From Pseudomonas flavescens (GTDB lineage Bacteria; Pseudomonadota; Gammaproteobacteria; Pseudomonadales; Pseudomonadaceae), in assembly GCF_013408425.1 (NCBI RefSeq), contig NZ_JACBYV010000001.1, positions 5,642,001 to 5,706,000 of the forward strand: DNA of 64,000 bases. The letters are read 5' to 3'. Made by a program: the position numbers and the translations under genes. Positions within the stretch are counted from its first letter, which is position 1. The number at the start of each line of letters is the position of its first letter. The notes under the pieces were generated by a model. It ran no database searches. It worked only from the letters and a program-made list of their open reading frames with translations, and had not been told where the DNA came from. Positions 27,830-51,988 of the stretch are shown here, piece by piece.

Positions 27830-27906
27830 GGGCCTATAGCTCAGTTGGTTAGAGCAGAGGACTCATAATCCTTTGGTCCACGGTTCGAGTCCGTGTGGGC
27901 CCACCA
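27830..27906 (+). tRNA. tRNA with CAU anticodon, probably tRNA-Ile2 (k2C34)
   Basis: A 77-nt cloverleaf ends in an encoded CCA. The acceptor stem GGGCCTA pairs with TGGGCCC, the D stem is GCTC/GAGC, the anticodon loop is CTCATAA and the T loop is TTCGAGT. CAU can be methionine or lysidine-modified isoleucine-2. The acceptor pairs C4:G69 and C5:G68 are those used by TilS to recognise tRNA-Ile2 and are not those of elongator tRNA-Met in E. coli, so Ile2 is favoured. A terminator follows directly. Confidence 0.93.
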
Positions 27907-42324: not shown

Positions 42325-43350
42325 CTACGCTCGGCTGCTGACCTCGACCCGCAGTGCCTTGTCCGTTGGCGTGCAGCTGACGGTCACCGGGCAGAAGGCC
42401 TCGATCACCTGGATATTGCTTTGCAGGTGCTCGCTCAGGTGCGTGGTGGTGAAGCTGCCCGCACCCGCCAGTGCCATGGGCAGCAAGAGTTGGTCGGCCA
42501 GGTGCTCGGCTACCGCCGCCTCGCTGGCAAGCCACTGACGCAGCGGTTCGATGGCCCGGTCGGCGACCGCTTCGGCCCGCACGCTGGTCTGTCCGAAGGC
42601 GCAGAACTGTTCCGTCAGGTTCTCGCAGGCCACCGTCAGCATGAGGATGTTGCCGGGACCGTGACTGTGATCCAGCCAGGTGCAGTGCAGATCCTCGTCC
42701 GCCCACTTCAGGCGCTTGCCGACACGCTCCAGTTCGCGCTCACCGACATGCCCGGCGATCCCGGCCAGCAGCACCTGTGCGTGCTGCCCGGTTATCGCAC
42801 CGCGTTCGGTCAGGTGCAGCGGCAGCAGTTGCGAGGGCTGAATGAAGGCCTCCAGTTCGCCTCCACCGGCCGGCACGAAACCGTGGCGGTGCAATTGCAG
42901 TTCGACCTGCGCGCCCATGCGCCGCAGCAGCGGTAGCCAGGCCTGATCGAGAAAGTCGAAAGGCGGCGCCGCCGGGTTGTGGGTACCACCACTGATGTGT
43001 ACGCGGCTCGGTTCGGCGGCACGCAGCAGGGCCGGCAGAATGGTCTGCAGCACCAGGGTGCAGCTGCCCGCCGAGCCGATGGCGAAGCGGTAGTCACCGC
43101 CGCGCACTGCCTGCGGGCGGAAGGTCAGGGTAGTGGCGTGCATCTGCGCACCCTCGACCTCGGCCGTGCTGATCTGCGCGGCAGCCAGTACGGCGGTCAA
43201 GTGCTGACGCAGCAGGCCCGGCCGGCTGCGCTTGGCGCGGATGTTGTGAATACGCAATGGCGTGCCGGTGATCATCGACAGGCTCAGCGCGGTGCGCAGC
43301 ACCTGGCCGCCGCCGATGGCGCCATCCAGTTCGAGAATTTCCTTGTTCAT
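42325..43350 (-). CDS. rtcA: RNA 3'-terminal phosphate cyclase
   Basis: This 341-residue RtcA converts RNA 3'-phosphate to a 2',3'-cyclic phosphate through an RNA-adenylate. It begins LELDGAIGGGQVLRTALSLS, with IRAKRSRPGLLRQHLTA, GSAGSCTLVLQTILPALL, HISGGTHNPAAPPFDFL and the nucleotidyl-acceptor His region near the C terminus (AVAEHLADQLLLPMALAG, SFTTTHLSEHL). It is the last gene of the rtc operon here. It is separated from the rest by a REP-like element and an rlaP remnant, and its 3' end abuts the 190-bp repeat array. Confidence 0.95.
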   Translation of the reverse strand: MNKEILELDGAIGGGQVLRTALSLSMITGTPLRIHNIRAKRSRPGLLRQHLTAVLAAAQISTAEVEGAQMHATTLTFRPQAVRGGDYRFAIGSAGSCTLVLQTILPALLRAAEPSRVHISGGTHNPAAPPFDFLDQAWLPLLRRMGAQVELQLHRHGFVPAGGGELEAFIQPSQLLPLHLTERGAITGQHAQVLLAGIAGHVGERELERVGKRLKWADEDLHCTWLDHSHGPGNILMLTVACENLTEQFCAFGQTSVRAEAVADRAIEPLRQWLASEAAVAEHLADQLLLPMALAGAGSFTTTHLSEHLQSNIQVIEAFCPVTVSCTPTDKALRVEVSSRA

Positions 43351-43693: not shown

Positions 43694-45046
43694 TTAACGC
43701 AATCGTTCGTAACTGCCTTTCAATACAAGTCCATCGGCTTCAAGTCGTTCGACACGCTGCAGTAACGCTGCTCGTTCGCCCTTCGAGGTTGTCGGGTCGA
43801 CCATCAGGTATTGTTTGCTGCACCAGACGCTCAGTTGCTCCAGCCAATACCCTTGTTCTTCAGGGGTTCTATCCAGGCGTATCAACAGGTACTTCAGTTG
43901 CTGCCAGCGTGGCCGCATCCCGAGTATTGCCGCACGCCGCCTGTTGGTTAGCTCATACCATCCATGATCCAGCCTGGCGTCGAGTTCGCTGGCCAGCTCG
44001 TTCCAGTCCTGCGAACTCAAGCGCTCTACCGCTTTGGCGAACACCTTGTCGCAGGCGTCATCCAGTGCCACCAACTGCCTCGATAGATCCGCCTGTTTCA
44101 GGCTCTCGACAGCAGCTAGACGCACGCTGCTCATGGGCGCCTGCTGGGCCTGGTCTTTCCAGCGGTCGTCCAGGTCGACCGCCAGCTCGCAAGCCAGGCC
44201 AAGCAACCCTAGCCATTCGCGCTTGTTGGCTGGCGTCCGCTGTTCGAGGCGGGCACCCAGTACTTCGCGTGCGTCGATCTGCCAGCGTGGAGCAGCCCAG
44301 CGTGCCAGGTTGCGTACTGCAGGTGACGCATCCAGCAGCGCTTGGCGCAGCAATGGGCGTGGGTCATCGAGCGACGTCAGCAGATACCGCAAGGCATTGA
44401 CCCGAACACTGGCGCCCGGTGTCGCTAAAGCCCTCAGCAACAATGGACGCGCCAGATCCGCTGGCAGCATCTGGCAGGCCGACACCGCCATTTGTCGTAC
44501 TGTCATCTCACGATGCACCAGTGCCTTGCCGAGCAGGCTGGTTGGCTCGTCGCTTGCCTCCAGCAACAGCTCGAAAAGAAACCGGGCGCTTTTGCCGTGC
44601 TGTACGAGGAAGGCCGCCAGCACCGCATCGCGCACTTCGGGCCCCTGCAACACCGTGCGCGCTGCCTCCAGCGTTTTGCTGTGATCGGCGCGGTGACGCT
44701 CTGCAAGCGCCATCAGGGGCTGCAGGGCATACAGCAACGTTGGCGCATGCTCGGACATAAGATATTGCCGTACGCCGGCATTGGCCTGCTGGCGTACCGG
44801 CGGTACCCAGTCGTTGACCCGTTCGAGCAGGACAGCCAAAGCTGCTGGCGACGGCAACTCGCGCAGTTCACGCACCGCGATCTCGCGCACGAAGCCATTG
44901 CCGTGACTGCTCAGCGTTAGCCAGTCGGCGTCGTCCTTGCAGCCTGCGAGGACTTCCAATGCTTCGCGGTGACGATAGTTTTCCCAATAATTATCGGAAG
45001 CAGGGCGGCTGTTCAGCCACTGCAGCCAGTCTTTCAGATGTTTCAT
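43694..45046 (-). CDS. HEAT-repeat-like protein in the rtc operon
   Basis: This 450-residue all-helical protein has degenerate HEAT/ARM-type repeats: FVREIAVRELRELPSPAALA, PPVRQQANAGVRQYL, MTVRQMAVSACQMLPADLAR, ASVRVNALRYLLTSLDDPRP and PAVRNLARWAAPRW. It has no catalytic motif. The start at 45046 (MKHLKDWLQWLNSRP) lies 5 bp after an rtcB 3' remnant, whose sequence would be misread as part of the gene if the upstream ATG at 45145 were used. HEAT solenoids bind proteins or nucleic acid. Position between rtcB-derived and rlaP-derived sequence makes it an RNA-repair accessory by association; its own function is unknown. Confidence 0.85.
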   Translation of the reverse strand: MKHLKDWLQWLNSRPASDNYWENYRHREALEVLAGCKDDADWLTLSSHGNGFVREIAVRELRELPSPAALAVLLERVNDWVPPVRQQANAGVRQYLMSEHAPTLLYALQPLMALAERHRADHSKTLEAARTVLQGPEVRDAVLAAFLVQHGKSARFLFELLLEASDEPTSLLGKALVHREMTVRQMAVSACQMLPADLARPLLLRALATPGASVRVNALRYLLTSLDDPRPLLRQALLDASPAVRNLARWAAPRWQIDAREVLGARLEQRTPANKREWLGLLGLACELAVDLDDRWKDQAQQAPMSSVRLAAVESLKQADLSRQLVALDDACDKVFAKAVERLSSQDWNELASELDARLDHGWYELTNRRRAAILGMRPRWQQLKYLLIRLDRTPEEQGYWLEQLSVWCSKQYLMVDPTTSKGERAALLQRVERLEADGLVLKGSYERLR

Positions 45047-45051
45047 ATTCT

Positions 45052-45147
45052 CTATCCTTTCACGCACACCACCTGACGCAGGGTGTGCATGATTTCTACC
45101 AGCTCGCGCTGGGCGTTCATGACATGGTCGAGCCTTGTGGGCCATCG
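45052..45147 (-). pseudogene. rtcB 3'-end remnant
   Basis: Minus-strand codons read DHVMNAQRELVEIMHTLRQV followed by VCVKG and TAG, matching the last 25 residues of RtcB encoded at 46636-47868 with two substitutions. DNA similarity continues upstream through GCCCACAAGG with a two-base loss and stops at about 45147, where the REP-like element begins. It marks the edge of a duplicated rtcB–cargo–rlaP block. Confidence 0.88.
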
Positions 45148-45243: not shown

Positions 45244-46032
45244 TCAGGCGTAGTGCCTGACCATCTCGCGCAGGTAGTCATCCAGCATGCCGCTGTCCGC
45301 CTCGGTGCGCGGCAGTTTCGGCACCGGCCGTTCCAGCTGCGCCTCGATAAAGCCGTGCAGGGCCGTGCGCCGAGGGCCATAGGCCGACTCATCGGCCCTG
45401 CGCTTGAGGGCCAGCAGTTCGTCGACTTCCTCCAGCAGTGCACGGTCGTCCACCGTCTGCAGCAGGTCGGCGAAGGTCATTGGCGGCCGGCCGCGGCCCT
45501 GGTCGATCCAGCGTACGGCCAGCAGCGGGCGCAGCACGTAGAAGTACTTCTTGAAACGCACCGACTCGCCTTGCAGGTAGCCACGAAAGTTCTTCTTGGC
45601 CATCGACAGGTAGTGGTTGCGCGCTGCCGGCGGGCTGTAGAACCGTTCGGCCAGTTCGCGCAGCCGCACCGTGGCGTCGCCTTCCTGGCGATACACCAGG
45701 GGCGAGTCCAGCCATTCCAGCAACGTGGGGTTGGATTTGCGCAACAGCCCGAGGGTCTTGCGCAGCTCCCAGCCACTGACGTCCAGCTCGTCATCCAGTG
45801 GACGCTCTATCACGTCACGGCCTTCATCGACCTGGACGAACCAGTCCGGCTTTTCCACGTAGACGAAGCGCACGTCATAGTCACTATCGGTCGAAGCGAA
45901 CCCCCAGGCGCGGCTGCCCGATTCGCAGGCGTACAGCACCTTGACGTTGCGCTCGCGCTCGACGCGTTCGAGTTCAGCCAGTACCCGAGCGCGCATGGCG
46001 TCGCTGAGGGGGTGGCGTTGTTGCATGTCCAT
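45244..46032 (-). CDS. rlaP: RNA-repair-associated nucleotidyltransferase (RlaP, DNA polymerase beta fold)
   Basis: This 262-residue protein of the YcgL/RlaP group has the polymerase-beta core GSRAWGFASTDSDYDVRFVY (GS motif and Asp-x-Asp catalytic pair near residues 41-57), then a helical C-terminal part (KKNFRGYLQGESVRFKKYFY, LRPLLAVRWID, DELLALKRRADES). Family members are regularly linked to RtcB or other RNA ligases and are proposed to add nucleotides to, or modify, damaged RNA ends. It is 15 bp downstream of the unknown gene at 46048-46626. Confidence 0.85.
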   Translation of the reverse strand: MDMQQRHPLSDAMRARVLAELERVERERNVKVLYACESGSRAWGFASTDSDYDVRFVYVEKPDWFVQVDEGRDVIERPLDDELDVSGWELRKTLGLLRKSNPTLLEWLDSPLVYRQEGDATVRLRELAERFYSPPAARNHYLSMAKKNFRGYLQGESVRFKKYFYVLRPLLAVRWIDQGRGRPPMTFADLLQTVDDRALLEEVDELLALKRRADESAYGPRRTALHGFIEAQLERPVPKLPRTEADSGMLDDYLREMVRHYA

Positions 46033-46047
46033 GTGTTCGATCCTTGT

Positions 46048-46626
46048 CTAATCCGTCGCGCTGGCGGCCAGCGCGGACAATGTTCGGCGTCGCGGGTTGT
46101 ACAGTGTGAGGCACCAGATGCCCCACCATTCCTTGCCGTCGTCGAAGTAGCTGCTCCAACTGCTGCGCTGCGGTTCGACGTCTGCATTGCCGACCCAGTC
46201 GAACACCTGCAGTCCCTCGTCGGGGTGCAGCTTCAGCACCTGCAGCCATTCGCGGAAGTCCGTCACCTGCAGCCCGGTCCCGTAGGGAGGATCGCGGAAG
46301 TTTCGGCACAGCAGGCCGTCGTCGCTGATCAATTCACGCACGTCATCAGCCGTGAGCACCTGCGGGCGAGCCTGGGCCAGATTCGCTGGCACAGGTTGCC
46401 AGCGCTGCTCGGCATAGCGGGGCTCGCGTGCAATCAGCTCCTGCCGCCAAATTCGTGCGCGCTCCTCAATGGTCTCGAAGAGCATCTGCAGCGCCAGGCG
46501 ATGTTCCGCTTCGCCTGGCGTGGCGGTTGGGTCGAGCGTTGCCACCGCGAAGTCAAAGACGCAGCCCGCCTGTTCCAGGCGGGTGCGCAGTTCATCGAGT
46601 CGCTGGTTTCGTACGGGTTGCAGCAT
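46048..46626 (-). CDS. Unknown protein between rtcB and rlaP
   Basis: This 192-residue protein has no family I recognise. It has a helical N-terminal half (LDELRTRLEQAGCVFDFAVA, RIWRQELIAREPRYAEQRWQ) and an aromatic-rich C-terminal part (DFREWLQVLKLHPDEGLQVF, WSSYFDDGKEWWGIWCLTLY). A GTGAGG precedes the ATG, nine bases after the rtcB stop, so it is coupled to rtcB expression. It occupies the slot that the HEAT-repeat gene fills in the duplicated block, suggesting an interchangeable accessory role. Confidence 0.75.
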   Translation of the reverse strand: MLQPVRNQRLDELRTRLEQAGCVFDFAVATLDPTATPGEAEHRLALQMLFETIEERARIWRQELIAREPRYAEQRWQPVPANLAQARPQVLTADDVRELISDDGLLCRNFRDPPYGTGLQVTDFREWLQVLKLHPDEGLQVFDWVGNADVEPQRSSWSSYFDDGKEWWGIWCLTLYNPRRRTLSALAASATD

Positions 46627-46635
46627 GTCCTCACC

Positions 46636-47868
46636 TCATCCTTTCACGCACACCACCTGACGCAGGGTGTGCATGACTTCTACCAGCTCGCGCTGGGCGT
46701 CCATGACATGGTCGATGTCCTTGTAGGCCATCGGGATTTCGTCGATCACGTCGGCGTCCTTGCGGCATTCGACGTGGGCCGTGGCCTTGATCTGGTCGGC
46801 CACGGTGAACAGCTTCTTGGCCTTGGTGCGGCTCATGGTTCGGCCGGCGCCGTGGCTGCAGGAGCAGAACGCTTCCTCGTTACCCAGCCCGCGCACGATG
46901 AAGCTCTTGGCACCCATCGAGCCGGGGATGATGCCCAGTTCGCCCTTCTTGGCGGACACCGCCCCCTTGCGCGTTACCAGTACCTCTTCACCGAAGTGGC
47001 GTTCCTTCTGCACGTAGTTGTGGTGGCAGTTGACCGCTTCCAGGGCGACTTCGAACGGTTTGGCGATGACGCCCCGGGCCGCTGCGATCACCGCATGCAT
47101 CATCAATGCACGGTTCTGCTTGGCGAAGTCCTGAGCCCAGCCCACCGCTTCCACGTAGTCGGCGAAGTGCTGGCTGCCTTCTTCGAAGTAGGCCAGGTCG
47201 CGATCCGGCAGGTTGGCGATGTGCTGGCGCATATCGGCCTGGGCCAGTTCGATGAACAGGTTGCCGATGGCGTTACCCACACCGCGCGATCCGCTGTGCA
47301 GCATGAACCAGACCCGGTTGGCTTCGTCCAGGCAGACCTCGATGAAGTGGTTGCCGGTTCCCAGCGTTCCCAGGTGCTTGCGGTTGTTGGTCTTCTCCAG
47401 TTTCGGGTATTTGTCGGTGATCACCTTGAAGCGATCGCTCAGCGCCGACCAGGCGTGATCGGCCAGGTCCGGTACGTTTTCCCAGGCACCACGGTCGCGA
47501 CCGGCGCGGGTGTTGCTGCGGCCATGGGGAACGGCTTTCTCGATGGCGGCGCGCAGCCCGGCCAGGTTGTCCGGCAGGTCGGTGGCAGTCAGCGAGGTAC
47601 GTGCGGCGATCATTCCGCAGCCGATATCCACGCCGACCGCAGCCGGGATGATGGCGCCGATGGTGGGAATCACGCTGCCGATGGTCGAGCCCTTACCCAG
47701 GTGCACATCCGGCATCACGGCCAGGTGCTTGAAGATGAAGGGCATCTTCGCGGTATTCATCAGCTGCTGGCGGGCCTCTTCCTCGACCGGAACGCCTTGC
47801 GTCCACAGTTTGATCGGCTTGCCGTTGGCGACTTCCAGCAGGTTGTAGGTCTTGGTTTGCATCATCAT
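46636..47868 (-). CDS. rtcB: RNA-splicing ligase RtcB
   Basis: This 410-residue ligase uses Mn and GTP to join 2',3'-cyclic phosphate or 3'-phosphate RNA ends to 5'-OH ends. It carries MPDVHLGKGSTIGSVIPTIG, GVDIGCGMIAART (metal Asp/Cys), GTLGTGNHFIEV, HSGSRGVGNAIG, AVNCHHNYVQKE and the guanylylated His in CSCSHGAGRTMSRTKAKK. Three consecutive ATGs (47868, 47865, 47862) could start it. The leader between it and rsr contains the small RNA array. The last 25 codons are duplicated at 45052-45147. Confidence 0.96.
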   Translation of the reverse strand: MMMQTKTYNLLEVANGKPIKLWTQGVPVEEEARQQLMNTAKMPFIFKHLAVMPDVHLGKGSTIGSVIPTIGAIIPAAVGVDIGCGMIAARTSLTATDLPDNLAGLRAAIEKAVPHGRSNTRAGRDRGAWENVPDLADHAWSALSDRFKVITDKYPKLEKTNNRKHLGTLGTGNHFIEVCLDEANRVWFMLHSGSRGVGNAIGNLFIELAQADMRQHIANLPDRDLAYFEEGSQHFADYVEAVGWAQDFAKQNRALMMHAVIAAARGVIAKPFEVALEAVNCHHNYVQKERHFGEEVLVTRKGAVSAKKGELGIIPGSMGAKSFIVRGLGNEEAFCSCSHGAGRTMSRTKAKKLFTVADQIKATAHVECRKDADVIDEIPMAYKDIDHVMDAQRELVEVMHTLRQVVCVKG

Positions 47869-47907: not shown

Positions 47908-48023
47908 CGGCGACAATCGTTGGTGAAACATGCGCGTTGCTCTATCCAGTTGAGCTACCCGTTGCCGGGGCGGGAGTCGAACCCGCAACCTTCACGTTCT
48001 GTAGTTCCACCGGCATTCGCCGG
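47908..48023 (-). ncRNA. Y-RNA-like tRNA mimic, element 5 (full: T, acceptor, D arms)
   Basis: On the minus strand the basal stem CGGCGA/TCGCCG encloses a second stem GGTGGAAC/GTTTCACC, with the 5' signature CGAATGCCGGTGGAACTACA and 3' TTGTCG. Inside lies a permuted tRNA: T arm GCGGG-TTCGACT-CCCGC (canonical T loop), acceptor-like stem CCCG-GCAA-CGGG closed by a GNRA tetraloop, then D arm GCTC-AACTGGATA-GAGC. There is no anticodon arm. The order T–acceptor–D is that of a circularly permuted tRNA, as in YrlA-type bacterial Y RNAs. It is the element nearest rtcB. Confidence 0.85.
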
Positions 48024-48030
48024 ATCAATC

Positions 48031-48052
48031 AAAAAGTGGAGGCTAAGCCTCC
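48031..48052 (-). terminator. Terminator-like hairpin between elements 4 and 5
   Basis: Read on the minus strand, GGAGGC-TTA-GCCTCC is followed by ACTTTTTG, a compact intrinsic terminator three bases after element 4. It would separate elements 1-4 from element 5 and rtcB, lowering rtcB expression relative to the RNAs. Confidence 0.75.
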
Positions 48053-48054
48053 GT

Positions 48055-48161
48055 GCAGCGACAAGTTCAGCGGGCATGTGCTCTGCCAGATGAGCGTCTT
48101 GCTTTCGCAAGGTGGGATTCGAACCCACAGTTCCGATGGAATGCCCGGCCGCATTCGCTGC
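48055..48161 (-). ncRNA. Y-RNA-like tRNA mimic, element 4 (full)
   Basis: Basal stem GCAGCGA/TCGCTGC; second stem GGGCAT/ATGCCC. The 5' signature is CGAATGCGGCC and the 3' signature CTTGTCG. The inner module has T arm GTGGG-TTCGAAT-CCCAC, acceptor-like stem CTTGC-GAAA-GCAAG with a GNRA tetraloop, and D arm GCTC-ATCTGGCA-GAGC. Its second stem differs in sequence from elements 3 and 5 but keeps pairing, which is covariation-like support for the fold. A terminator follows. Confidence 0.87.
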
Positions 48162-48173
48162 GTTGTTTAAAGA

Positions 48174-48305
48174 TGCGACGACAAAGGTGGTGAAACGTAT
48201 TTTCGTGTTCTGCCATTGAACTACGGCCCCCCAGTGATGGAGCCGACGGGATTCGAACCCGCATCTCGACCGTGGAAGGGTGTAGTTCCACCGGCATTCG
48301 TCGCA
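48174..48305 (-). ncRNA. Y-RNA-like tRNA mimic, element 3 (full, 7-bp acceptor)
   Basis: Basal stem TGCGACGA/TCGTCGCA (8 bp); second stem GGTGGAAC/GTTTCACC; signatures CGAATGCCGGTGGAACTACA and TTTGTCG. The inner module has T arm GCGGG-TTCGAAT-CCCGT, a full 7-bp acceptor-like stem CGGCTCC/GGGGCCG joined by the loop ATCACTGG, and D arm GTTC-AATGGCA-GAAC within GTAGTTCAATGG, very close to a real tRNA D arm. It is the most tRNA-like of the five and looks like a tRNA cut in the anticodon region and rejoined at the acceptor end. Confidence 0.87.
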
Positions 48306-48322
48306 AAACCGTTGAATCAGGT

Positions 48323-48408
48323 GGCACGACAAGATGAGTGACTGTTCCGTGTTGCCACGGGCGGGAATGAACCCGCTTAACCGATGTACAGCCACTGGCA
48401 TTCGTGCC
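48323..48408 (-). ncRNA. Y-RNA-like element 2 (reduced: no D arm)
   Basis: This is the shortest element (86 nt). Basal stem GGCACGA/TCGTGCC; second stem AGTGGCTG/CAGTCACT (one G-U); signatures CGAATGCC and CTTGTCG. The inner part keeps a T-like arm GCGGG-TTCATTC-CCCGC, whose loop lacks the conserved A58, and an acceptor-like CCGTG-GCAA-CACGG. After this it passes straight to the second stem; no D arm is present. Confidence 0.78.
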
Positions 48409-48411
48409 TCG

Positions 48412-48539
48412 CTTCGCCATGACCAGGTTCGCCGGGACTGTTCGCGCTAGCGCGTTGCAGGGCTTGAACCTGCTCGCTCTTACCGGTTTTGCCGGTTTGG
48501 CTTACCTGTAGTCCCAGCGGCATTCATGACGCCGCGAAG
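48412..48539 (-). ncRNA. Y-RNA-like element 1 (diverged, no D arm)
   Basis: The basal stem can be CGTCATGA/TCATGGCG, extended by CTTCG/CGAAG with a bulge; the second stem is GGGACT/AGTCCC. The 5' part ATGAATGCCGCTGGGACTACA resembles the shared signature, but the 3' TTGTCG is replaced by TGGTCATG. It contains an extra hairpin ACCGG-CAAAA-CCGGT, a canonical T arm GCAGG-TTCAAGC-CCTGC and a short CGCG-CTAG-CGCG stem in place of the acceptor; no D arm. It is the element next to rsr and the least certain member. Confidence 0.65.
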
Positions 48540-48550
48540 TTGCTTCTTTG

Positions 48551-48577
48551 GGTGCTTCGCCCGTTGCACGAAGCACC
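48551..48577 (-). other. Hairpin just after rsr
   Basis: GGTGCTTCG and CGAAGCACC form a 9-bp stem with a 9-base loop, six bases past the rsr stop and before RNA element 1. Without a T run it is more likely an mRNA 3'-end stabiliser or processing site that separates rsr mRNA from the small RNAs. Confidence 0.5.
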
Positions 48578-48582
48578 ACTTT

Positions 48583-50133
48583 TCATATCTCCATCTGCTC
48601 GATGGCGTCTACCCAGTGGGCTGCGCCATAGGTACCGTTGGCGAACTGTGCCACCACATCGAACACCGCGTCGCTGAAGCCGCCGACATTCAGGATGTCT
48701 GCACGATCCGGCGCCTGGGTGGTGCCATGGGGCTGCAGGTCGATGCAGATCAACCGCGCTTGCGGGTTGAGGTGCTTGATCCGTTCCCATTGCCGCAGGG
48801 TTTGCGTGGCGCCATGACGTCGGGCGTCGATCCAGGATTCGTTGTCGGAAACCAGAATCAATGTATCCACCCGGGCCTTGGCGTCCGCCAATTGTTGCAG
48901 GGGGGCCGAGCAACTGGTTCCGCCGCCACCGATTGCCGCCAGTTTCTGGGCATTGCTCATCACGCTGTCACGCGGGTTGAGCGTTACCTTCACCACCTTG
49001 TTCTCGAACGGCAGCACCTGGGCATGCGGTTGCTTGCGCAGGATAGCCGCTGCCACCAGTGCCGCGACGTCGATGCAGCGCACCGCCGTGGTCGCACCCT
49101 GGCGGTAGCCGGTTACCGGGCTCGCCATCGAACCCGACACATCCGGGCAGACCACCACGTTGCCGCTCAGCACCGGCACGTTGGCCAGCGACAGCTCCAG
49201 GGCATCCTGCAGCGCTTCGCGCACCACCAGCGGTACTTCGCTGCTGGCCATGCGGTAGGCCGCCAGCAGCTGGTAGGGGTAAACCCGCGCCTTGGCCACC
49301 GCCTCTGCGTCGGCCAGCCGTGCGGCGACGATCTCCGCGCAACCCCTGATCTCGAATGCGCCATGGCGCAGCAGCGTGTTCAGGTTCATGCGCAGTGCCT
49401 GCCAGCCCATACGTCCTGCCAGTTCGGCCCATTGCGCCTTGTTCAGCGTCTCGTTACCGAGCAACTGGAATGGCACGTCCGGCAGTTCGCTGCTGGTGCC
49501 GCTGCGAAACGCCAGCAGGGAGCGGGTCAGCGGTGGCAGCGCAGCGACATCCGCCGGTTTGCCGATCAGCCAGGCGAAGAACGCCTCGCGCCATGCTTCT
49601 GCCGGCTTGGGGTGAACCATCTTCACCACGTCTGCCAGGGAGGGCTGGTTGCCGATCGCCGCCTGCAACAGTTGGCGCTCGCTGGCCGTGTTGAGCCAGT
49701 TCTGCACCAGTCGCTTGGGTTGCGAGCCCAGGGATTTACGCCCAGTCACACCACTACGTAGGATCTGCACGAAGGTGCGCAGCATCTTGCCGTTATCCAC
49801 CACCTCGGCGAACAGCGCCGGTACCAGGCTCGAACGTTGCGCCGCCAGGGCAGCCAGCAGCAGGGCGGGCATGTCCTTCATGTGGCCTTTCTTGCGGGCA
49901 TACAGGGCGGCCTTGGCCACGTAGCGGCTATCCAGTTGAGCGACCAGCGCCAGCACGTCGGCCAGTTGGGTCTCGGCCGCGGCGTAGTAGGTCTGGTTCA
50001 GGCAGCCGGTTACCGCCAGTTGCGCCAGTTTGTGCTTGGGCTTGTAGGTGTAAGCCGGAGCCTGTGCCTTGTTCAGCGTATCGCTGGTTGGCAGGTGCGC
50101 TTCCTGGGTATTGAACAGCTTGAAGTTGGCCAT
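48583..50133 (-). CDS. rsr: Ro60 orthologue Rsr (TROVE + von Willebrand A domain)
   Basis: This 516-residue RNA-binding protein has a TROVE domain at ~20-320 of helical HEAT-like repeats (LAQLAVTGCLNQTYYAAAET, YVAKAALYARKKGHMKDMPA) and a vWA domain at ~325-510 with an intact metal site motif (VVCPDVSGSMASP, DxSxS; ILVSDNESWID). Ro proteins form a ring that holds misfolded RNA ends and bind Y RNAs on the outside; bacterial Rsr works with PNPase and RNases. It is the first gene after the sigma54 promoter, and the RNA array that follows encodes its probable ligands. Confidence 0.94.
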   Translation of the reverse strand: MANFKLFNTQEAHLPTSDTLNKAQAPAYTYKPKHKLAQLAVTGCLNQTYYAAAETQLADVLALVAQLDSRYVAKAALYARKKGHMKDMPALLLAALAAQRSSLVPALFAEVVDNGKMLRTFVQILRSGVTGRKSLGSQPKRLVQNWLNTASERQLLQAAIGNQPSLADVVKMVHPKPAEAWREAFFAWLIGKPADVAALPPLTRSLLAFRSGTSSELPDVPFQLLGNETLNKAQWAELAGRMGWQALRMNLNTLLRHGAFEIRGCAEIVAARLADAEAVAKARVYPYQLLAAYRMASSEVPLVVREALQDALELSLANVPVLSGNVVVCPDVSGSMASPVTGYRQGATTAVRCIDVAALVAAAILRKQPHAQVLPFENKVVKVTLNPRDSVMSNAQKLAAIGGGGTSCSAPLQQLADAKARVDTLILVSDNESWIDARRHGATQTLRQWERIKHLNPQARLICIDLQPHGTTQAPDRADILNVGGFSDAVFDVVAQFANGTYGAAHWVDAIEQMEI

Positions 50134-50173: not shown

Positions 50174-50189
50174 TGCAGTCGCTGTGCCA
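50174..50189 (-). promoter_or_regulatory. Sigma54 (-24/-12) promoter of the rsr–rtc operon
   Basis: On the minus strand TGGCACAGCGACTGCA matches TGGCAC-N5-TTGCA with one change, and GG and GC are exactly 10 bases apart. It ends 41 bases before the rsr start, giving a predicted leader of about 28 nt. RtcR, encoded divergently, is a sigma54 activator. Confidence 0.85.
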
Positions 50190-50380: not shown

Positions 50381-51988
50381 ATGGCACGCAAGCGCACGGT
50401 CGCAATCGGTTTCATCGGCGCGACCCTGGATCGAGTGGGCAAGGGCGCCAACCGCTGGAACAAATGGCGACCCAGCATTGGCTTGTGTCAGCAGCCGGAT
50501 CTGCTCATCGATCGCCTCGAGCTGATTCATGGCGCCGATGCACGCGACATCAGCCTGGCTGAGCGCGTGCGTGCCGATATCGAGCAGATATCCCCGGAAA
50601 CCGAGGTGCGCCTGCGGCCGATGCCTCTGCGCAATCCCTGGGATTTCGAAGAGGTCTATGGGGCGCTGCACTATTTCACCAGTGCCTATGCGTTCGACAC
50701 CGAGCAGGAGGATTACCTGGTGCACATCACCACCGGGACCCACGTGGCGCAGATCTGCTGGTTCCTGCTCACCGAGGCGCGCTACCTGCCGGCGCGTCTG
50801 GTGCAGACCTCGCCAGCGCGTAAGCGTGATGACGATGCTCAGGTCACCGGTACCCATGCGCTGATCGATCTCGACCTGTCGCGCTACGACCGGATCGCCA
50901 GCCGTTTCCAGCACGAGCGCCTGGAGGGGCTGGCTTTTCTCAAGTCGGGGATCGCGACGCGTAATGCCGCCTTCAACCGTTCCATCGAGCAGATCGAGCG
51001 GGTGGCGGTGCGCTCCAGGGCGCCCATGCTGCTGATCGGCCCGACCGGTGCGGGCAAGTCCTTTCTGGCTCGGCGTATCTATGAGCTCAAGCGCAGCCGG
51101 CATCAGGTCGAGGGACGCTTCGTCGAGGTGAACTGCGCGACCTTGCGCGGTGACGGCGCCATGTCGACTCTGTTCGGTCATATCAAGGGGGCCTTCACTG
51201 GCGCGCAGAATGCCCGTGACGGTCTGTTGCGGGCGGCCGATGGCGGCATGCTGTTTCTCGACGAAATCGGCGAGCTGGGGCTGGATGAGCAGGCCATGCT
51301 GCTCAAGGCCGTCGAGGAGAAGCGTTTTTTCCCGCTCGGCTCCGACAAGGAAGTGGCCAGCGACTTCCTGCTCATTGCCGGCACCCACCGGGACCTGCGG
51401 GCGCGGGTCGCGCAGGGCGTGTTCCGTGAGGACCTGTTCGCGCGTATCAACCTGTGGACCTTCGAACTGCCAGGGTTGGCCGGGCGTCGCGAGGACATCG
51501 AGCCGAACATCGACTTCGAGCTGCAGCGCCATGCTCGCGAGCAGGGGCGCCTGGTGCGCTTCAACCTGGAGGCGCGGCGCCGCTACCTGGCCTTCGCCAG
51601 CTCTGGCGACGCAGCCTGGCAAGGTAACTTCCGGGAGCTTTCCGCCTCCATCACGCGCATGGCTACCCTGGCCGACAGCGGGCGAATCGATGAAGCCCAG
51701 GTGCAGGAGGAAATCGAACGCCTGCGTCGCGCCTGGGGGCTGGCTGACCAGAACGACGAGTTGGACGAGCTGCTGGGCGGATCGGCAGCGGATCTCGATC
51801 TGTTTGATCGCCTGCAGCTGCGCGCGGTGATTGCGGTTTGTCGCGAGGCTGGCAGCCTGTCCGACGCGGGGCGGCGCCTGTTCGACATCTCCCGCCAGGC
51901 CAGAGCCCAGCCCAACGATGCCGATCGCTTGCGCAAGTACCTGGCGCGATTCGGCCTCGACTGGAAAGCGCTGCGGCAGGTCGATTGA
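50381..51988 (+). CDS. rtcR: Sigma54-dependent RNA-repair regulator RtcR
   Basis: This 535-residue bacterial enhancer-binding protein has an N-terminal regulatory domain at ~1-185 of the CARF-like RtcR type (GFIGATLDRVGKGANRWNKW, HITTGTHVAQICWFLLTEA). A AAA+ core at ~190-420 follows, with Walker A IGPTGAGKS, the sigma54-contact loop KGAFTGAQ (~269) and Walker B GGMLFLDEIGE, then a C-terminal helix-turn-helix-like part. In E. coli the regulatory domain represses ATPase activity until a 2',3'-cyclic-phosphate RNA ligand binds. An AGAGG precedes the ATG. Confidence 0.96.
   Translation: MARKRTVAIGFIGATLDRVGKGANRWNKWRPSIGLCQQPDLLIDRLELIHGADARDISLAERVRADIEQISPETEVRLRPMPLRNPWDFEEVYGALHYFTSAYAFDTEQEDYLVHITTGTHVAQICWFLLTEARYLPARLVQTSPARKRDDDAQVTGTHALIDLDLSRYDRIASRFQHERLEGLAFLKSGIATRNAAFNRSIEQIERVAVRSRAPMLLIGPTGAGKSFLARRIYELKRSRHQVEGRFVEVNCATLRGDGAMSTLFGHIKGAFTGAQNARDGLLRAADGGMLFLDEIGELGLDEQAMLLKAVEEKRFFPLGSDKEVASDFLLIAGTHRDLRARVAQGVFREDLFARINLWTFELPGLAGRREDIEPNIDFELQRHAREQGRLVRFNLEARRRYLAFASSGDAAWQGNFRELSASITRMATLADSGRIDEAQVQEEIERLRRAWGLADQNDELDELLGGSAADLDLFDRLQLRAVIAVCREAGSLSDAGRRLFDISRQARAQPNDADRLRKYLARFGLDWKALRQVD

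Follow-up and report, generated by a model that had tools for sequence, protein, structure and literature searches.

The region between rsr and rtcB in Pseudomonas flavescens carries a tandem array of five Y RNA elements (E1 to E5) on the minus strand, each closed by its own basal stem. The array is a real feature of the window (the whole 64,000-nucleotide stretch analyzed here); its kind had been correctly named in an earlier, sequence-only reading, and it belongs to a known system as a variant form and is not peculiar to this genome. On the reading that we regard as probable, the five are Y RNAs that are transcribed together in an RNA-repair message under RtcR control and then released from it as separate molecules, each with its own basal helix and predicted Rsr face, and their differing upper modules would make them tethers for Rsr.

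The element detector, which combines GAAT[GA][CTG] with GTC and a closing stem, found five elements in the window region, whereas 5,000 dinucleotide shuffles gave none in 4,619 cases, one in 370 and two in 11. On 109 locus regions, 2,180 shuffles yielded a mean of 0.08 elements per locus and never more than 3; on the reverse strand, 100 of these regions had no element and 9 had one. The detector can overcount, as the shuffles of these regions with up to three elements indicate, and it can undercount, as at L197 (one element versus three Rfam YrlA matches) and at L075, where two Rfam matches fall outside the stretch read. Bacterial Y RNAs are recognized by a gene adjoining that of Rsr and by paired ends with a signature; the array adjoins rsr, and all five elements possess the stem and GAATGC (GAAUGC in RNA). 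TTGTCG (UUGUCG) is present in four of the five, as had been claimed, and E1 has TGGTCA instead. The basal stems, which agree letter for letter with those first reported, are, from E1 to E5, CGTCATGA/TCATGGCG, GGCACGA/TCGTGCC, TGCGACGA/TCGTCGCA, GCAGCGA/TCGCTGC and CGGCGA/TCGCCG; each ends in GA, leads into AATGC and is closed by GTC plus the complementary stem.

The operon runs on the minus strand from rsr, encoding a Ro60-related protein with vWA_Ro60 and TROVE domains (48583..50133; 94.2 bits against NCBIfam RNA-bind_Rsr, model cut-off 900), through the five RNA elements to the RNA ligase gene rtcB (46636..47868; PF01139, E 1.7e-130), a 192-aa ORF listed for its operon position between rtcB and RlaP (46048..46626), which had no match in Pfam at E<=0.001 or NCBIfam at E<=0.01, RlaP, an RNA repair pathway protein of the DNA polymerase beta family (45244..46032; PF10127), a HEAT-repeat protein (43694..45145; PF13646) and the RNA cyclase gene rtcA (42325..43350; PF01137). 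The sigma54 activator gene rtcR is divergent, on the plus strand (50381..51988; PF06956 and PF00158). A sigma54-type -24/-12 site, TGGCACAGCGACTGCA, lies 56 nt upstream of the rsr start codon (50174..50189, minus strand). It is one of three one-mismatch sites of this type in the window, in which two-mismatch sites are no commoner than in shuffles (39 versus 44), and its support comes from conservation of the motif upstream of rsr, because TGGCACN4-5YTGCW occurs within 250 nt upstream of the gene in 61 of 77 loci; the controls taken inside rsr contained none. Gene content and this conserved site together bear out the earlier placement of the elements within an RtcR/sigma54-type rtcBA operon. 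In Salmonella, RtcR is activated by 5' tRNA halves that bear a terminal 2',3'-cyclic phosphate and then turns on rsr-yrlBA-rtcBA (PMC7790460); by analogy, the same activation may apply in Pseudomonas. By eye, a GC-rich hairpin, GTGCTTCG/CGAAGCAC, stands immediately 3' of the rsr stop codon, ahead of E1 (48551-48577, minus strand).

The upper domains of the five elements fall into three grades, so that the two structural classes proposed earlier were roughly right but too few. E1 (48415..48531, minus strand, 117 nt; detector and fold) has above its basal stem and GAATGC an upper stem and then hairpins, including a T-arm-like GCAGG TTCAAGC CCTGC, and folds with z = -3.26 relative to shuffles. 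It is a long form: at the other Pseudomonas loci where a first element was detected, this is a stem-loop of 57 to 67 nt, except in L034 (113 nt). E2 (48323..48408, minus strand, 86 nt), identified by the detector, class alignment, fold (z = -4.81 relative to shuffles) and a weak RF02553 match, adds to its basal stem a T-arm-like hairpin, whose loop is 6 nt in the window, and an acceptor-like hairpin, with no D arm when folded alone. The T-arm pattern missed the window E2 but called orthologs, such as that in L033; the E2-class consensus fold comprises basal and upper stems only (15 pairs, 4 compensated), and 8 of 26 sequences of the class lack the acceptor-like hairpin. E3, E4 and E5 carry the full tRNA-like domain of T, acceptor-like and D arms, as judged from Rfam alignment and folds, and E1 and E2 do not. 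E3 (48174..48305, minus strand, 132 nt; RF02553, class alignment and consensus fold) consists of a T arm, a 7-bp acceptor-like stem, an A at position 73 followed by UCA, a short linker and a D arm; folded alone, its minimum-energy structure differs from the tRNA-like one (z -2.68). E4 (48055..48161, minus strand, 107 nt; RF02553 and fold) has a 5-bp acceptor-like stem with a GAAA cap, and its D arm, aligned by the Rfam model and present in the fold, was missed by the D-arm pattern, which called it in orthologs, whereas E3 and E5 were called in full; the E4-class consensus fold lacks the acceptor-like hairpin. E5 (47908..48022, minus strand, 115 nt) is a canonical YrlA that fits the model fold yet is no more stable than shuffles (z -1.20; 29 of 200 shuffles did as well).

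The covariance-model search proposed in the earlier reading scored the three tRNA-like elements strongly, E2 weakly and E1 not at all. RF02553 (YrlA) scored E5 at 89.5 bits (E 1.5e-20), above the gathering score of 69, and E3 at 56.3 bits (E 5.8e-11), E4 at 50.0 bits (E 4e-9) and E2 at 25.2 bits (E 0.059), below it; E1, in which the UUGUCG half is missing, had no Rfam match at E<=1, and the Rfam YrlB model (RF02565) matched nothing in the window at this threshold, E1 and E2 included. ARAGORN called no tRNA or tmRNA within the array, its sole call in the window being a tRNA-Met at 27830-27906, and where the Rfam tRNA and tmRNA models matched parts of the array, the scores stayed under their cut-offs. 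The permuted tmRNA model gave 29.9 bits at 48222-48262 (minus strand), and the tmRNA model gave 39.7 bits at a tRNA-like module in L191 (3415-3492), the cut-off being 47 in both cases. Elsewhere, ARAGORN placed a tRNA-Pro(tgg) among Y RNA elements downstream of rsr in L224 (3520-3597) and L225 (951-1028, minus strand), and a tmRNA with an unusual tag, which could be spurious, in the Diaphorobacter caeni array (L096, 5660-5896).

Pairing of the basal stems was assessed on 303 elements from 80 of 81 loci, selected by their sequence motifs regardless of whether the ends could pair; 58 further GAATG sites were skipped for want of a 3' motif. The outer 4 bp were fully paired in 222 of 303 cognate combinations (73%) as against 90 of 1,006 non-cognate ones from the same loci (9%), and elements with three or four outer pairs showed all four Watson-Crick types at each position. 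Compensatory change, which the sequence-only reading had expected in these stems across Pseudomonas, is thus seen when cognate and non-cognate halves are compared, but classes 2 to 5 hardly vary within the genus; therefore, most of the covariation lies between paralogs and between lineages, and the expectation is answered mainly at that level. Within the genus, covariation is seen in the short form of class 1: both sides changed at 8 of 18 pairs among 22 sequences, in an alignment that excludes the long E1 of the window. In the other class consensus folds, compensated pairs numbered 5 of 32 (E3), 4 of 29 (E5) and 3 of 19 (E4).

The array could instead be a cis-acting structured leader of rtcB that works by operon attenuation and releases no free small RNAs, which we hold to be extremely unlikely. 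A putative terminator-like hairpin with a U run between E4 and E5 (48038..48052, minus strand; terminator scan) would suit such a leader, and similar hairpins were seen by eye in most of 18 spacers viewed, with a U run in some only; terminator-like sites in the array region, however, are no commoner than in shuffles (2 versus 3.6), each element is closed by its own stem with an Rsr-type signature, and PMC9879122 and PMC8394870 present the Salmonella homologues as small noncoding RNAs.

The earlier interpretation was right about Y-RNA-like identity, adjacency to rsr and operon type, but it had also held the arrangement to be more elaborate than any known, and this does not stand. Accounts of bacterial Y RNAs seem mostly to deal with one or two in a genome. 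Among the named rsr loci, which are the best 80 of 90 relatives and include near-identical species, one element was found in 4, two in 13, three in 24, four in 12, five in 20, six in 3 and seven in 4; five copies are therefore ordinary, with at least three elements in 63 of 80 and at least five in 27 of 80. The four loci with seven elements, within the same best 80, belong to two Undibacterium, one Massilia and one Burkholderiales MAG, and the 41 Pseudomonas loci hold two to five; L049 and L103 (P. protegens) are among those with a five-element array. L030 to L032, in which the stretch has no rsr, were left out of the counts. In L050 and L098, a pair of E1-E2 type is doubled in tandem, giving five elements by another route. 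The rsr gene is patchy, occurring in 28 of 298 Pseudomonas genomes and in 10 of 398 genomes drawn evenly across the phylum; the eight rsr loci of the latter sample outside Pseudomonas contained 5, 4, 5, 7, 4, 4, 4 and 1 elements, where for five loci without rtcB in the stretch the 1,200 bases after rsr were read instead. At least three elements were likewise found in 27 of 39 loci from L190 to L228, some of which are cut or partial. In an independent Rfam scan of 11 relatives, 10 had two or more YrlA matches at E<=0.01, most of them short of the gathering score, and RF02565 matched in L087 alone (34.6 and 35.9 bits; cut-off 97). Thus, the copy numbers and the Rfam scan indicate that tandem Y RNA arrays are the usual state of the operon in our sample. 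In L188 and L189 (G108), rsr is in two overlapping pieces with a stop and is probably broken, and four Y RNA elements are still detected.

How old the separate elements are was judged from their inner sequences, with basal stems removed, in a set of 161 elements that covers 41 Pseudomonas loci and the window. The closest relative that was not identical belonged to the same stem class in 149 of 161 cases and to the same genome in none; on these counts, the classes look older than these species and free of homogenization. By this measure, the five elements look like old, separately inherited Y RNAs. Modules have also been lost and gained, with E1, E2 and an E4-like element in one group and E1, E2 and an E5-like element in another. 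That the copies are neutral duplicates of one function, five being kept for dosage, would agree with the variable copy number among the 41 Pseudomonas loci and with the doubled E1-E2 type pair, yet each class has its orthologs in other species, no element has its nearest neighbor within its own genome, the order of elements is kept and the modules differ in kind, so we consider it very unlikely.

The array can be placed beside several known systems. E3 to E5 resemble YrlA (RF02553; Salmonella and others) in the GAAUGC/UUGUCG stem, the T arm, the acceptor-like hairpin, the D arm and the adjacency to rsr and rtcB, but the window has three such paralogs, with a full-length acceptor-like arm of 7 bp in E3 and one of 4 to 5 bp in the E4 class. 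E1 and E2 recall the Salmonella YrlB (RF02565), which lies between rsr and yrlA and whose upper part is no full tRNA mimic, although no sequence match was found in the window at E<=1. Salmonella has two Y RNAs in the order rsr-yrlB-yrlA-rtcB (PMC9879122), and the window echoes this order, with the less tRNA-like elements first and the tRNA-like ones next to rtcB. The Salmonella operon, its activation by tRNA halves with cyclic phosphate and the Rsr-Y RNA-PNPase complex are all in the literature (PMC7790460, PMC9879122 and PMC8394870). The pairing of Rsr with a Y RNA also recalls the Deinococcus RYPER (Rsr-Y RNA-PNPase), from which a tethering mode is expected by analogy; the difference is that the window has a five-element array in an rtcBA operon and that contact with PNPase is putative here. 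In the literature searched, seen in part and lying apart from the main Y RNA papers, we found no prior report of Y RNA arrays or of CCA inside bacterial Y RNAs, and we could not find in print the array as a common state, five old classes or the CCA register of related Y RNAs described below.

The tRNA-like modules of E3 relatives have a feature of their own. In E3, the acceptor-like arm of 7 bp is stacked on a 5-bp T stem, with three pairs compensated among 19 sequences, whereas E4-class arms have 4 to 5 bp in 28 of 28. A full-length arm occurs in 44 of 63 non-redundant T-arm/acceptor/D-arm modules of the discovery loci, and 9 of these 44 have CCA one base after the 7-nt acceptor strand (binomial at 1/64, 2.4e-8), a register that we take to be tRNA positions 74-76. 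In a later set of 31 further rsr loci chosen by Rsr alone, CCA was in register in 11 of 18 full-length modules (3.9e-16) and at another of five checked offsets in one; since the modules are related and the binomials treat them as independent, both probabilities overstate. At least two families (f51 and f13), perhaps more, occur in both sets, and outside f51, the best-represented shared family, 6 of 12 later-set modules had CCA.

These module counts demand a paired acceptor arm, so that there "full-length" holds by selection. When acceptor pairing was not demanded, 34 of 321 T arms were followed by eight bases and then CCA. Four of the 34 lie inside ARAGORN calls of tRNA (L216 and one each in L224 and L225) or tmRNA (L096) and were left out of the A7 alignment and the module counts. 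Of 21 non-redundant CCA matches with a D arm, 20 paired 7/7 in the acceptor and one 6/7; non-cognate acceptor arms had a mean pairing of 5.0, with full pairing in 62 of 420. The next commonest position was offset 5 (28 of 321), by eye largely a CCA spanning acceptor positions 71-73 of Pseudomonas E3. A7, which aligns the window E3 with 21 CCA elements, showed 98.7% standard pairs versus 85.2% in shuffles and 37-47% with slid partners, and 19 of 31 pairs, including 6 of 7 in the acceptor helix, change on both sides; its rows were chosen by basal and T stems, so this is circular for helices 1 and 3 but not for helices 2, 4 and 5. It took in 22 of 27 references, leaving out long linkers (L191, L203, L206), the broken L220 and the near-duplicate L225:1041-1168, and seven CCA matches gave no reference, either for lack of a Y signature or basal stem or because L096 and L216 were left aside. 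The retention of N-CCA while the acceptor strands diverged widely suggests selection on the CCA and not mere inheritance.

The window E3 itself reads UCA at this site, which is UCA, UUA, AUA or GAA across the window and Pseudomonas orthologs. A permuted tRNA with CCA at 74-76 in its linker is accordingly absent from the window E3 and found among relatives, in 11 of 18 later-set modules; Budvicia aquatica (L082) is one species whose loop holds CCA. E3 appears somewhat closer to the CCA class than the other elements of the window: among the best 10 non-Pseudomonas matches, CCA-type sequences number four for E3, three for E5, one for E4 and none for E1 and E2 (28 of 287 overall), and the two best for E3 are not CCA-type. 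Permuted tRNA genes of algae and archaea and permuted tmRNA have the same order of 3' half, linker and 5' half, and the CCA of the related Y RNAs lies in their linker, but E3 has an Rsr-type stem in place of an anticodon arm and UCA in place of CCA. Permuted tRNAs of the archaeon T. pendens also encode CCA, one of them with a 1-nt linker (PMC3978253), and superposition of the solved YrlA domain on tRNA, in circularly permuted order, is already published (PMC11472068 and PMC13355120).

We also considered whether E3 belongs to a widespread Y RNA class that is a circularly permuted tRNA whose acceptor loop encodes a CCA, this CCA being selected because tRNA-processing enzymes (RNase P, 3' trimming) would open the loop, splitting the Y RNA in two and exposing a CCA end that might even be aminoacylated, and then decaying to UCA in the window lineage with the fold kept. 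As a whole, we think this quite unlikely; if it were true, Rsr would carry a chargeable tRNA mimic during tRNA damage. YrlA was reportedly described by Wang in 2018 as having no free CCA end. An alanine identity was rejected: G.U at pair 3 was the commonest in the discovery set (14 of 44), but in the later set pairs 3 and 1 each had it in 4 of 18 modules. The window E3 has, by eye, G3.U70 and A73, which we take to be the alanine identity rule, and 13 of 15 acceptor-arm letters match tRNA-Ala(tgc). A single parent tRNA was likewise rejected, none of the 41 distinct tRNA sequences of the genome being best for E3, E4 or E5. As an impression, sequence resembling a tRNA 3' half lies 5' of the T arm in some relatives, such as CTGTTAACC in L198 and L202; it varies and rebuilds no anticodon stem, and an anticodon remnant was not accepted.

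The likeness to tRNA could also mean that the elements are decoys and not tethers, competing with tRNAs for an anticodon nuclease or tRNA enzymes during damage, with the copies serving as baits. E3, E4 and E5 each mimic a full tRNA, and their T and D arms are conserved, the E3 acceptor plus D and T arms score 36 at best against the tRNAs of the genome, equal to the median of 36 between tRNAs for different amino acids, and the idea of a competitive inhibitor is raised in PMC7790460, which also states that YrlA itself is not cut by the anticodon nuclease. Against this, E1 and E2 are not full mimics, there is no unique parent tRNA, and the Y stem replaces the anticodon arm, so an anticodon nuclease would have no loop to bind; we therefore regard decoys as unlikely, with some residual plausibility.

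In the tether reading that we prefer, damaged-tRNA signals would switch on RtcR, and sigma54 transcription would yield Rsr and all five Y RNAs together. Each Y RNA would present its own basal helix and GAAUGC/UUGUCG face, in E1 without the UUGUCG half, for predicted Rsr binding. The upper modules differ, being hairpins with a T-arm-like element in E1 and E2 and apparently a circularly permuted tRNA body in E3 to E5. Rsr may take them up as tethers or gates that can be exchanged for one another and that couple it to different partners, with a putative division of labor among the five. Candidate partners are PNPase, by analogy with Deinococcus, and tRNA-handling enzymes for E3 to E5.

The CCA register makes two ideas testable, namely the descent of YrlA from a permuted tRNA and the opening of a closed acceptor loop. 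More broadly, most of the named loci (63 of the best 80 of 90 relatives) have three to seven Y RNAs of graded tRNA likeness, whose kinds stay distinct across Pseudomonas species, and the array makes the contribution of each Y RNA to Rsr a direct genetic question within one operon.
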